Origin: Xanthomonas sontii
GTDB taxonomy: Bacteria > Pseudomonadota > Gammaproteobacteria > Xanthomonadales > Xanthomonadaceae
Length of the DNA stretch: 64,000 nucleotides
Direction of reading: 5' to 3'
Assembly: GCF_040529055.1 (NCBI RefSeq)
Contig: NZ_CP132342.1
Coordinates: forward strand, 886,001-950,000
In this document: positions 1-5,856 of the stretch, in pieces
How positions within the stretch are numbered: the stretch's first letter is position 1
How the letters are laid out: each line of letters opens with the position of its first letter
Program-made: the position numbers and the translations under genes
Notes under the pieces: model-generated
Databases searched by the model: none
Told to the model about the DNA's origin: nothing
The model's input: only the letters and a program-made list of their open reading frames with translations

Positions 1-513
1 CGCGCGCGCCTTGTCCAGGTTCGGCGGCTGCTGGTCGAGCCAGCGCTGGCAGGCGTTGCCGCTGGTGACGATGGCCGCCAGCGGCTGGTTGACCTCGTGC
101 GCGATCGACGCGGTCAGGCTGCCCAGGCTGCGCACCCGCGCCAGCCGCAGCAACTGCGCCTGCGCCGCGTGCGCGGCGGCCTTGGCGCGCTCCATGCGCA
201 CCGCGATGGAGGCGGTGACCGCCACCACCACGATGCTGATCGCCGAGTTGATCACGCCGACGTGGTAGGCGCCGGCGTGGGTGAGATGGAAGCTGAGCAC
301 GACCAGCACCACGCAGATGCCCGCCAGCACGCCCAGCCCGGCCGGCGCCAGCAAGCGCACCGCGCCGAGGATCGCCACGGTGTAGAACAGCGCCGCCGCC
401 ACCGCATAGTCGGTGACCGTGTCGGCGACGAAGATCGCACCCAGCGCCAGGCCCAGCGCGGCGAGGCCGAGCAGGCGGCGGTGCGGCGGCAGCGGCTTGA
501 ACCAAGCGATCAT
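1..513 (-). CDS. Sensor histidine kinase, N-terminal part (runs off left edge)
   Basis: The first 171 codons of a membrane sensor kinase are visible, read leftward from the ATG at 513. Residues about 14-110 form several hydrophobic segments, which look like a membrane-embedded sensing module without a large periplasmic loop. A short linker (about 105-125) leads into the phosphoacceptor region, where SIAHEVNQPLAAIVTSGNAC is the H-box with the phosphorylated His. The HEVNQPLAA form is typical of the FixL/DctB-like kinase group. The ATPase domain and any receiver partner lie outside the window. The kinase class is well supported. The signal is unknown. Confidence 0.85.
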   Translation of the reverse strand, partial: MIAWFKPLPPHRRLLGLAALGLALGAIFVADTVTDYAVAAALFYTVAILGAVRLLAPAGLGVLAGICVVLVVLSFHLTHAGAYHVGVINSAISIVVVAVTASIAVRMERAKAAAHAAQAQLLRLARVRSLGSLTASIAHEVNQPLAAIVTSGNACQRWLDQQPPNLDKARA

Positions 514-555: not shown

Positions 556-1284
556 TCAGGCTTCGGCGCCGGCGTTCCAGAACGCCTGTTGTACACCCGG
601 TTCGCCCTCCAGGCGCTGCACCACCGCATCCAGTTCCTCGGCACGCACCGCGGTGGCATACAGGGTGGCGGCGATCTCCACGTCCTTCTGCCCGAACGGA
701 TGCTGCTCGACCTCGCGCGCCGGGTAGTGCGCCTCCTCCAGCAGTTCGATCAGCCGCTCGCGCACCTCGCCGTGCACCTCGCGCGCGCAGATCGCATAGA
801 ACATGTAGGTGGCTTCCAGCGAGGACTCCTTCAGCGGATGCCGGTTGATCCGGTTCACCATCGGCCGCAGCAGGGTATTGCTGAGCAGCACGAACATGGC
901 CGCCAGCACCGCCTCGGCGACCAGCCCGGCACCGGCGCAGGCGCCGACCGCGCCCGACCCCCACAACGTCGCCGCGGTGTTGAGCCCGGTGACGTTGGCG
1001 CCTTCCTTCATGATCGCGCCGGCGCCGAGGAAGCCGATGCCCGAGACCACGTAGGCCACCACCTGCACCGCGCCCTGGGTGCCGCCGTGGATCTCGAACA
1101 GGCGGTCGCCGAGCGAGACGAAGATCGCCGCGCCGACCGCGACCAGGGTGTTGGTGCGCAGCCCGGCGGTGCGCTGGCGCACCTGGCGTTCGAAGCCGAT
1201 GATCGCGCCGAGCACGAAGGCGGCGGTGAGGCTCACCAGGGTGTCGAGCAGCGAGCCGAGATTGAACAGACGCAGTGCTTCCAT
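556..1284 (-). CDS. mgtC: MgtC/SapB family inner-membrane protein
   Basis: This 242-residue protein has the MgtC layout: four to five hydrophobic segments in residues 1-150 with the conserved stretches GAIIGFERQ and GIGFLGAGAIM, then a soluble C-terminal domain (about 155-242). Known MgtC proteins support growth in low Mg2+ and inside hosts, and in Salmonella inhibit the F1Fo ATPase. The gene is last in a leftward unit after a 108-residue protein, with a 126-bp gap. The 5' leader of that unit contains an attenuator-like arrangement (see 1742-1883), so Mg2+-responsive control is likely by inference. The start at 1284 begins MEALRLFNLG. Confidence 0.9.
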   Translation of the reverse strand: MEALRLFNLGSLLDTLVSLTAAFVLGAIIGFERQVRQRTAGLRTNTLVAVGAAIFVSLGDRLFEIHGGTQGAVQVVAYVVSGIGFLGAGAIMKEGANVTGLNTAATLWGSGAVGACAGAGLVAEAVLAAMFVLLSNTLLRPMVNRINRHPLKESSLEATYMFYAICAREVHGEVRERLIELLEEAHYPAREVEQHPFGQKDVEIAATLYATAVRAEELDAVVQRLEGEPGVQQAFWNAGAEA

Positions 1285-1410: not shown

Positions 1411-1737
1411 TCAGCGCACCCCGGGCCACCACGCCAGCGCGGCATGCAGCCAGTGCGCGGCCGGGGCGTTCGCCCCGGCGTCGTGCAGGCGCCGCTGCGC
1501 CGCATGCGGCAAGCGCGCGCGGACCCGGATGCGGTCGGCGACGGACAGCAGCGACAGCGCATCGGCCATCACCCGCGGCGACTGCGCGGACAGGGCCAGG
1601 GCGAAGGCGCGGGCGCCGTGGGCGGCGAGCAGATGGCGCAGCGCCTCGGTACGGCGCATGGCGACCGCGGCGCGCAGTGCGCGCTGCAGGCCGCGCTGCA
1701 GGCGGAACCGGCGGGAGAACAGCGAGAACAGGAACAT
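1411..1737 (-). CDS. Small unknown protein upstream of mgtC
   Basis: This 108-residue basic protein begins MFLFSLFSRRFRLQRG. I do not recognise a family. Residues 1-8 are hydrophobic, followed by an Arg-rich, helix-prone body and a C-terminus ending in AWWPGVR. The start is fixed by a near-perfect Shine-Dalgarno, AAGGAGGT, five to six bases before the ATG. This SD lies in a predicted hairpin that would hide it. The gene follows a leader peptide and precedes mgtC, so it is probably made with MgtC. A role as an accessory or regulator of Mg2+ stress is only a guess from position. A longer antisense reading frame of rmuC runs into this frame but is not the gene. Confidence 0.7.
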   Translation of the reverse strand: MFLFSLFSRRFRLQRGLQRALRAAVAMRRTEALRHLLAAHGARAFALALSAQSPRVMADALSLLSVADRIRVRARLPHAAQRRLHDAGANAPAAHWLHAALAWWPGVR

Positions 1738-1801
1738 GACGACCTCCTTGCGGCGCGTGGCCGGAGGACGTCGCAGCGTGTGCGCGGCGTGCGTCTTCCG
1801 G
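1735..1801 (-). promoter_or_regulatory. Mutually exclusive hairpins controlling the SD of the mgtC operon
   Basis: In the leftward transcript CCGGAAGACG (1801-1792) pairs with CGTCCTCCGG (1770-1761), 9 of 10 bases. The overlapping segment GACGTCCTCC can instead pair with GGAGGTCGTC, also 9 of 10, which contains the Shine-Dalgarno of the 108-residue gene. The two stems share CGTCCTCC, so only one can form. A ribosome sitting at the leader-peptide stop would cover the first arm and favour the SD-hiding stem. Early ribosome loss on the MDPDP codons would favour the SD-freeing stem. The pairings are seen in the sequence; the switching model is inference. Confidence 0.65.
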
Positions 1802-1802
1802 C

Positions 1803-1883
1803 TCAGCGCCGGGCAGCGACCAGGCGAGGGGAACGGCGGGGGAATGCGGCGCTGATGCCGCGTCGATGCGGATCGGGGTCCAT
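1803..1883 (-). CDS. Leader peptide of the mgtC operon (MDPDP...)
   Basis: This 26-codon ORF is preceded by GGAGGCGAGC, a good ribosome site seven bases from the ATG. The peptide begins MDPDPHRRG, has four prolines and is Arg-rich towards its end. Salmonella MgtL ([17 protein letters not shown], from memory) opens with the same acidic/proline pattern, which is known to destabilise translating ribosomes at low Mg2+. Here the stop codon is one base before the first arm of a hairpin, as expected for a translation-sensing leader. The ORF and its signals are seen directly. The regulatory role is inference. Confidence 0.7.
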   Translation of the reverse strand: MDPDPHRRGISAAFPRRSPRLVAARR

Positions 1884-2118
1884 GCTCGCCTCCGGTATCA
1901 GGGGAACGGATCGCGCGGAGCGCGATGGTCTGGCGCGGTCGGATGCCGCGGTACCGCCCACTGGCCGGGCCAGGAGCGGGTGGCGCAAAGCTTGGCATGC
2001 GGCCCAGGCGTGCACCAGCCTGCATGAGGCCATGACGGCGATACCAAGGTATATCCGGTCTGGTCCGCCTGCCGGCGCGTGGCGCAGCGATTGAGACGCG
2101 GCCGGCTACACTGGCCGC

Positions 2119-4782: not shown

Positions 4783-4935
4783 CGGCGCGCTGCGCCATCT
4801 GGCTGTGCTTGGACGAGCTGAAGGTGTGTTGCGGCGTCTAGGTAGTTGGTGAACGAGCCGGAGAGGTGATCGATGTCCTCGTTGTCCGGCGTCGCTTGTT
4901 GCGGCTGAACCGCTCCTACGCAAGGCGTGCAGCAT

Positions 4936-5752
<817 letters not shown>

Positions 5753-5856
5753 GCACGTCGACGTCCGCTGCGGATACGGCATCACCCGCTGCAACCCAAC
5801 AGCCATTCCACTCTGCGCTGCTACTACTGTGCGCGATGGCAAAAAAGTTCAGGCAC

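Follow-up and report, generated by a model that had tools for sequence, protein, structure and literature searches.

A candidate Mg2+-responsive leader peptide with two exclusive RNA helices ahead of an MgtE-N-like gene and mgtC in Xanthomonas and relatives

The leader and its operon

The window (the whole stretch of 64,000 nucleotides of the Xanthomonas sontii genome that was analysed) carries, on its minus strand, a 26-codon ORF that begins with MDPDP and is preceded by a GGAGG ending 5 nt ahead of the ATG. All the elements listed in the initial annotation of this locus are present on that strand, including the leader ORF with its ribosome site and the first arm of a hairpin, CCGGAAGACG, one base past the leader stop (Table 1). 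The order of the genes that follow, however, differs from the one assumed: the gene next to the leader, taken in the initial annotation for mgtC and for the gene under direct control, is an ORF for a 108-amino acid protein, weakly similar to the N domain of MgtE, whereas mgtC comes second; the directly controlled gene would be the MgtE-N-like ORF. The strand past the stop, which we call the mimic (1801-1792), can pair with CGTCCTCCGG (1770-1761) at 9 of 10 positions, with one A/C mismatch, and GACGTCCTCC (1772-1763) can pair with GGAGGTCGTC (1747-1738), also at 9 of 10 positions, with one T/T mismatch.

Table 1. Features of the leader region and the adjacent genes in the window.
Feature	Coordinates	Strand	Remarks
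Leader ORF, 26 codons, MDPDPHRRGISAAFPRRSPRLVAARR	1803..1883	-	ATG 1883-1881; TGA 1805-1803
Stem 1, GCGGC-ATCAGC-GCCGC	1846..1861	-	Within the leader, directly past the MDPDP codons
Mimic (anti-sequestor strand), CCGGAAGACG	1792..1801	-	1 nt past the leader stop
Arm, GACGTCCTCCGG	1761..1772	-	Common to both exclusive helices; homologous arm in relatives
SD strand of the next gene, AAGGAGGTCGTC	1738..1749	-	Hidden once paired to the arm; SD AAGGAGG, ATG at 1737
First structural gene, 108-amino acid protein	1411..1737	-	Family weakly MgtE-N-like
mgtC (MgtC/SapB family), second structural gene	556..1284	-	PF02308 3.6e-34, PF21770 8.4e-13
Sensor histidine kinase gene, 5' part	1..513	-	After mgtC; runs past the window; FixJ-like response regulator next
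Palindrome, ATACCWWGGTAT	2041..2052	.	Within 2037-2056; ATACN4GTAT form

The window's own 108-amino acid protein has no match in Pfam or NCBIfam. Its relatives, which have an RVxADALSLL stretch in common, are about 84-142 amino acids long; when 26 of them were scanned singly, 7 matched PF03448 (MgtE_N) at E<=0.1, the best at 4.3e-4, and 4 also matched FliG_M. Comparison with the MgtE N domain yielded an hhalign probability of 34.5, and the N domain of MgtE in the PDB was matched with a weak E-value of 0.24. The protein is best described, by a weak assignment, as a putative stand-alone MgtE-N-like protein. Besides the N domain, MgtE itself contains CBS and membrane domains, which the members of this family lack. 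A plasmid collection searched with one query contained no relative of the protein.

The best NCBIfam matches of the two genes that follow mgtC are FixL for the kinase (4.8e-51) and FixJ for the regulator (1.6e-57), both under the curated cut-offs. A histidine kinase and a FixJ-like response regulator follow mgtC in the window (1-513) and in L196 (1830-3514), and of the 31 loci that match mgtC in the named-genome scan described below, 30 also have a kinase homologue. The palindrome occurs once in the 5.02-Mb genome, and an ATACN4GTAT motif is found no more than 300 nt upstream of 62 of the 67 unique leaders, at positions -105 to -299. The palindrome may serve as operator for the promoter of the operon and could, as a guess, be bound by the FixJ-like regulator encoded after mgtC. 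The start of the leader is the sole occurrence of ATGGAYCCNGAYCC in the genome; the same pattern written backwards, used as a control, is likewise found once. There are no Rfam matches above the gathering score in the 64-kb window and 11 relative loci. Elsewhere in the window, a low-complexity stretch (4900-5850) contains, on either strand, ORFs that encode long runs of Leu, Arg or Asn/Gly-Ser.

Distribution of the leader and gene content of the module

The gene for the 108-amino acid protein is found in 14 of 20 genomes of the genus, and the leader precedes it in all 14 (with an MNPDP start in one). Among 395 genomes of the window's family, 53 have a match at E<=0.01, 37 of them strong (E<=6.9e-7) and 16 weak (E>=9.5e-4, including L108 and L109); the leader count covers the strong matches, and an M[DEN]P leader lies upstream at 37 of 37. 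A further scan produced 13 matches, 3 of them strong, with the other 10 left out. The scan of named genomes resulted in 43 loci from Xanthomonas, Stenotrophomonas, Pseudoxanthomonas, Variovorax, Acidovorax, Comamonas, Ramlibacter and Herminiimonas records, among others, each with a leader that starts with MDPDP, MNPDP, MDPDS, MDPAP, MDPGP or MEPGP. The family set and the named-genome set overlap and, together with the leader of genome G640, make up 80 leaders, 67 of them unique, which are not independent of one another. The set was gathered by a motif pattern, which matched at every one of the 80 loci to which it was applied.

The MDPDP start, which had been predicted to be conserved in relatives, indeed is: it is found in 60 of the 67 unique leaders, next to MNPDP and MDPDS (two each) and MDPAP, MDPGP and MEPGP (one each). 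The leaders are 26-50 codons long, and an SD-like string stands ahead of 64 of them, with three lacking one. Variation in codons 2-5 falls mostly on third positions, and the C-terminal part of the peptide changes more freely, by eye even by frameshift (L134, L145). In many Stenotrophomonas leaders, an in-frame ATG four codons upstream (METQMDPDP) makes the start uncertain.

In a second family, that of G640, the gene was detected in 25 of 399 genomes. A leader was found at 19 of the 25 loci examined (12 by the pattern and 7 by eye with the ORF listing; L222 was left out), and the remaining 6 loci have no recognisable leader. The starts in this family include MDSDP, MDLEPDP, MDPYP, MDPVP and MDPAP (the latter three found twice each), MDPEP and a GTG-started MDPDP. 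The variants MDPAP, MDPGP, MEPGP, MDPYP and MDPVP show that Asp4 is not universal, which counts against the reading preferred below.

Among 369 genomes of the class, a pattern combining GGAG with an MDPDP start, which misses leaders with other SDs such as that of G640, has five matches, two of them at this module; the remaining three are ORFs of 7, 224 and 37 codons (the last one, L161, viewed up to 80 nt downstream, may be a further leader of this kind). No MDPDP leader was found within about 600 nt upstream of 10 MgtA genes above the cut-off in 166 class genomes without the MgtE-N-like gene, a sample that has E. coli and Salmonella outside it.

Each of the 43 named loci contains an mgtA, mgtC or CzcB/CzcA homologue detected by tblastn, with mgtC further off in L126 and L127; mgtA is the second gene in the Stenotrophomonas and Pseudoxanthomonas relatives. 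In the family of G640, one of these neighbours lies within 1.5 kb on either side at 19 of the 25 loci, and there is none in that span at the other 6. Two regularities in this family were noticed after the fact: the five leaderless loci with a recognised neighbour are all mgtC loci, and the seven mgtA loci all have MDPDP or MDLEPDP leaders.

Several features of individual loci deserve mention in their own right. At L117, L118, L121-L123, L125, L129, L130, L132, L149 and L157, the leader and the MgtE-N-like gene stand directly ahead of a CzcB-CzcA RND operon, followed in L117 by mgtC; the presence of an Mg2+-type leader on an exporter of a heavy-metal family is unexplained. The two Pseudoxanthomonas loci have an extra 100-amino acid ORF between the MgtE-N-like gene and mgtA (L124, 6279-6578), with no match elsewhere among the 43 named loci. 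Records titled as a Rickettsia endosymbiont and Bacillus subtilis (L135, L156) contain a Stenotrophomonas-like operon, probably through contamination or mislabelling. Two genomes of the genus (L032, L033) encode, elsewhere, a second MgtC that is 55% identical to the window's.

Two helices with one arm in common

The region between the leader end and the next gene can form two mutually exclusive helices with one arm in common, leader end:arm (mimic:arm) and arm:SD strand. The SD-hiding hairpin past the leader stop is more stable than dinucleotide shuffles, with a mean z of -2.55, below -2 in 47 of the 67 leaders and below -1 in 63. Both helices were traced in an alignment of 24 Stenotrophomonas-type and 2 Pseudoxanthomonas leaders (A4) and in one of 10 leaders from other groups, including two from Stenotrophomonas (A5). 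In A4, 90.7% of the cells of the SD helix are paired, compared with 43-52% for slid versions; 15 cells are changed on both sides, a count reached by 0 of 500 shuffles, and these involve 5 pairs, a count reached by 137 of 500, which counts against the switch. The mimic:arm helix of A4 is paired in 94.6% of the cells (slid, 39-52%); double-sided changes affect 6 of its pairs, a number attained by 9 of 500 shuffles, and 12 cells, a number attained by none. The corresponding values in A5 are 79.7% of cells paired and 6 changed on both sides for the SD helix, the covariation score of which (0.200) is similar to that of one slid version (0.209), and 91.8% paired and 3 changed on both sides for mimic:arm, the two such pairs of which are reached by 65 of 500 shuffles. 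Double-sided substitutions are thus more numerous, for both helices, in the Stenotrophomonas-type leaders than in the mixed set. Because related sequences may beat such shuffles without any structure, these counts are support rather than proof.

When no structure is given, RNAalifold chooses mimic:arm, along with stem 1, in both A4 and A5; over all 15 Xanthomonas leaders, it chooses the SD helix, which counts against the switch. In the ten clade-A Xanthomonas leaders, the window's own clade, the SD helix is paired in 100% and mimic:arm in 98.2% of the cells, and neither helix shows covariation, these sequences being too uniform. The expectation of compensatory changes in both stems was thus borne out outside the window's clade but not inside it. 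The spacing between stop and stem had likewise been expected to be kept: the single base between the stop and the mimic is a property of the window's Xanthomonas clade only, and elsewhere the mimic lies mostly inside the 3' end of the leader. Among 28 representatives (such lists were hand-picked for diversity and differ slightly between analyses), the mimic is in position in 22, compared with 9.0 expected. In only 10 of the 67 leaders is the energy of the mimic:arm duplex better than that of shuffles at p<=0.05 (mean z -0.68), which counts against the switch.

Stem 1 is weak by energy (mean z of -1.2 relative to permuted codons over the 67 leaders, p<=0.05 in 13) but is chosen by RNAalifold at the same place in A4, A5 (inner pairs) and A6, and in A5 it is paired in 88.0% of the cells, with 2 pairs changed on both sides. 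It starts about 19-23 nt into the leader, close to the point at which the mRNA enters a ribosome whose P site is occupied by Pro3, so that stem 1 may hold the ribosome at the sensitive Asp/Pro codons.

The folding energetics of the window can be compared between states in which a ribosome has left the leader and states in which it covers the mimic. When the RNA is free from codon 6, the mimic:arm stem forms with P=0.99. The arm:SD stem has, in the exact register first proposed, a probability of 0.00 in the free RNA and 0.09 when the mimic is masked, and is a minor register; a mask on the mimic that imitates a ribosome at the leader stop instead lets the arm form a hairpin with the SD strand in a neighbouring register. 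The earlier claim of two exclusive folds, one of them hiding the SD, accordingly stands as far as the two conserved helices are concerned and fails for the exact form of the second stem. Opening the SD and start codon costs 6.9 kcal/mol in the free state and 14.6 kcal/mol with the mimic covered. With shuffled leaders, the cost is 12.4+-1.6, and 0 of 40 shuffles are as low as the real leader.

The unpaired fraction of the SD hardly differs between the two states in the window (0.33 versus 0.30), which counts against the switch, and shows no difference between states over the 67 leaders (0.25/0.24/0.26); this measure being flat, the opening energy was used instead, controlled with shuffles. The mean cost over the 67 leaders is 9.1 kcal/mol free and 14.7 masked, and masking makes opening at least 1 kcal more costly in 61 of the 67. 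The opposite, opening at least 1 kcal cheaper when masked, holds for 4 of the 67, including three listed Xanthomonas clade-B leaders, and counts against the switch. Masking favours any local hairpin, and the shuffle control therefore matters: for 25 of 28 representatives, the cost with the real leader lies below the mean of the shuffles, and for 14 it falls within their lowest tenth (mean z -1.41). Real leaders cut the opening cost of the downstream SD compared with shuffled ones. The probability of the SD hairpin rises from 0.59 in the free RNA to 0.88 with the leader masked, by at least 0.2 in 31 of the 67 leaders, and goes down in none. For 19 of 28 representatives, this probability is lower with the real leader than with shuffled ones, and for 9 it falls within the lowest tenth, a weaker result that counts against the switch.

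A candidate Mg2+ switch, its alternatives and known counterparts

The leader, the stems and the gene order are conserved, the two helices exclude each other, and the SD opens more readily with the real leader than with shuffled ones. These features are reminiscent of two enteric systems. In E. coli, ribosomes translating MgtL are reported to drop off at EPDP when Mg2+ is low, with a toeprint that places Pro3 in the P site when EttA is present (PMC11282234), and in Salmonella mgtQ, Asp2 and Glu5 are described as destabilising ribosomes, after which an alternative stem frees the ribosome-binding site (RBS) of mgtB (PMC8092293); for both peptides, ribosome destabilisation is reported to raise the expression of an Mg2+ transporter (PMC11282234, PMC8092293). 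By analogy, the switch in the window would combine an RNA logic like that of mgtQ with a start like that of MgtL. In high Mg2+, ribosomes would reach the end of the leader and keep the mimic covered, be it the 3' end of the leader or, in the window's clade, the bases just past the stop; the arm would then pair with the SD strand and close the next gene. In low Mg2+, ribosomes would lose stability at the Asp/Pro codons near the start and drop off, and the uncovered mimic would capture the arm and release the SD, allowing translation of the MgtE-N-like gene, with mgtC (elsewhere mgtA or the RND exporter) following on the same mRNA. We consider such a nascent-peptide translational switch, with drop-off at MDPDP in low Mg2+, to be the probable explanation, if by no means a secure one.

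The same two folds could answer to another signal, namely slow or aborted decoding of Pro and Asp codons caused by the supply of charged tRNA-Pro, EF-P or ABC-F proteins or by general translation stress. This would fit the retention of Pro3 where Asp4 is lost (MDPAP, MDPGP, MDPYP, MDPVP) as well as the reported response of Salmonella mgtP to charged tRNA-Pro (PMC8092293). However, Herminiimonas lacks Pro5 (MDPDS), Pro3 is absent from MDSDP and MDLEPDP, the operons code for the Mg2+ transporter MgtA, for MgtC or for an MgtE-like protein, and MgtL, with a nearly identical start, is reported to respond to Mg2+ (PMC11282234); a signal other than Mg2+ is rather unlikely. The sign of the control could also be reversed, with a ribosome at the leader stop melting the arm and opening the SD, so that the next gene is on in high Mg2+ and the MgtE-N-like protein acts as a high-Mg2+ brake. 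In most of a set of 28 leaders, the SD hairpin starts a few nucleotides past the stop, and extending the mask to +10, as for a ribosome at the stop, brings the mean opening cost down to 10.1, compared with 14.7 before, with a saving of at least 1 kcal in 53 of the 67; the three clade-B leaders are most open in this state. As such a ribosome would open the arm in many relatives, this possibility is kept, and is judged improbable: the free leader is more open still on average (9.1), the mimic has both the position and the covariation of an anti-sequestor, and the at-stop state of the window itself is closed (14.3).

Regulation might instead occur at the level of transcription, by Rho-dependent attenuation like that of MgtL, with the SD hairpin being secondary. 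The leader has, by eye, a C-rich, G-poor stretch, and Salmonella MgtL is reported to act through Rho (PMC11552253), but in two alignments it is the SD strand itself that covaries, and for E. coli mgtA, according to the same source, Rho-dependent termination was not detected (PMC11552253); this is a very unlikely explanation. A chance ORF with chance stems is strongly disfavoured, to the point of being barely credible. GC-rich sequence folds readily, and many of the single-sequence shuffle tests are weak; yet leader and exclusive stems are conserved across genera and two families and, as judged by sequence comparison, exceed chance, with the leader preceding every strong relative of the next gene in the 395 genomes.

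The preferred reading, a switch driven by drop-off at MDPDP, leads to a broader proposal, in which these leaders would form a widespread, separately evolved class of translational nascent-peptide Mg2+ sensors. The class would occur beyond the enterics, in no fewer than two families of proteobacteria, head a module of a stand-alone MgtE-N-like protein with mgtA, mgtC or a CzcA-type RND exporter, and have a stem that meets the ribosome at the Asp/Pro codons; we regard this proposal as evenly poised between right and wrong. Ribosome destabilisation as an intrinsic Mg2+ sensor has so far been described for a few enteric leaders. If the proposal is true, the principle is general, extending to Xanthomonas, Stenotrophomonas, Pseudoxanthomonas and Comamonas/Variovorax-type bacteria; dozens of natural variants (MDPDP, MNPDP, MDPGP, MDPYP and others) become available for testing the importance of individual residues; and the unnamed MgtE-N-like protein and RND exporters are implicated in Mg2+ control. 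An acidic, translation-aborting leader that frees an RBS is already known from mgtQ. In the open-access literature searched, no such leader is described outside the enterics, and, as far as that search extends, the position of the leader, its architecture, breadth and gene content are new.

Among the known systems, the mgtM and mgtP leaders of Salmonella are also short ORFs ahead of the mgtC operon and are described as responding to ATP and charged tRNA-Pro, respectively, by control of transcription (PMC8092293). MgtL, the mgtA leader of Salmonella and E. coli, has EPDP at the start of the peptide, and drop-off at this motif in low Mg2+ is reported to switch the RNA fold (PMC11282234, PMC11552253); both MgtL and the new leader stand ahead of Mg2+ transport genes. 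The likeness to MgtL that had been pointed out for the window's leader consists of the first five residues, M-acid-P-D-P, and does not extend to the target, since MgtL is reported to control mgtA, not mgtC (PMC11282234): mgtL lies directly before mgtA, whereas the window's leader precedes the MgtE-N-like gene and then mgtC. MgtL is, moreover, described as acting via Rho-dependent termination (PMC11282234, PMC11552253), whereas the conserved element here hides the SD. The closest counterpart in RNA logic is mgtQ of the Salmonella mgtCBRU operon, likewise a short ORF whose acidic residues near the start abort translation, and in which the RBS of the next gene is likewise held in one stem (3:4) and freed by an alternative one (2:3), resulting in translational control of an Mg2+ transporter (PMC8092293); features of this type, namely an RBS sequestered upstream, an alternative stem that captures the arm and early acidic residues, were found here by computation. 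The differences are that mgtQ encodes 8 amino acids and lies between mgtC and mgtB (PMC8092293), whereas the new leader has 26-50 codons and stands at the head of its operon, and that the new leader, unlike mgtQ, mostly starts with MDPDP, has a stem past the motif and precedes an MgtE-N-like gene.
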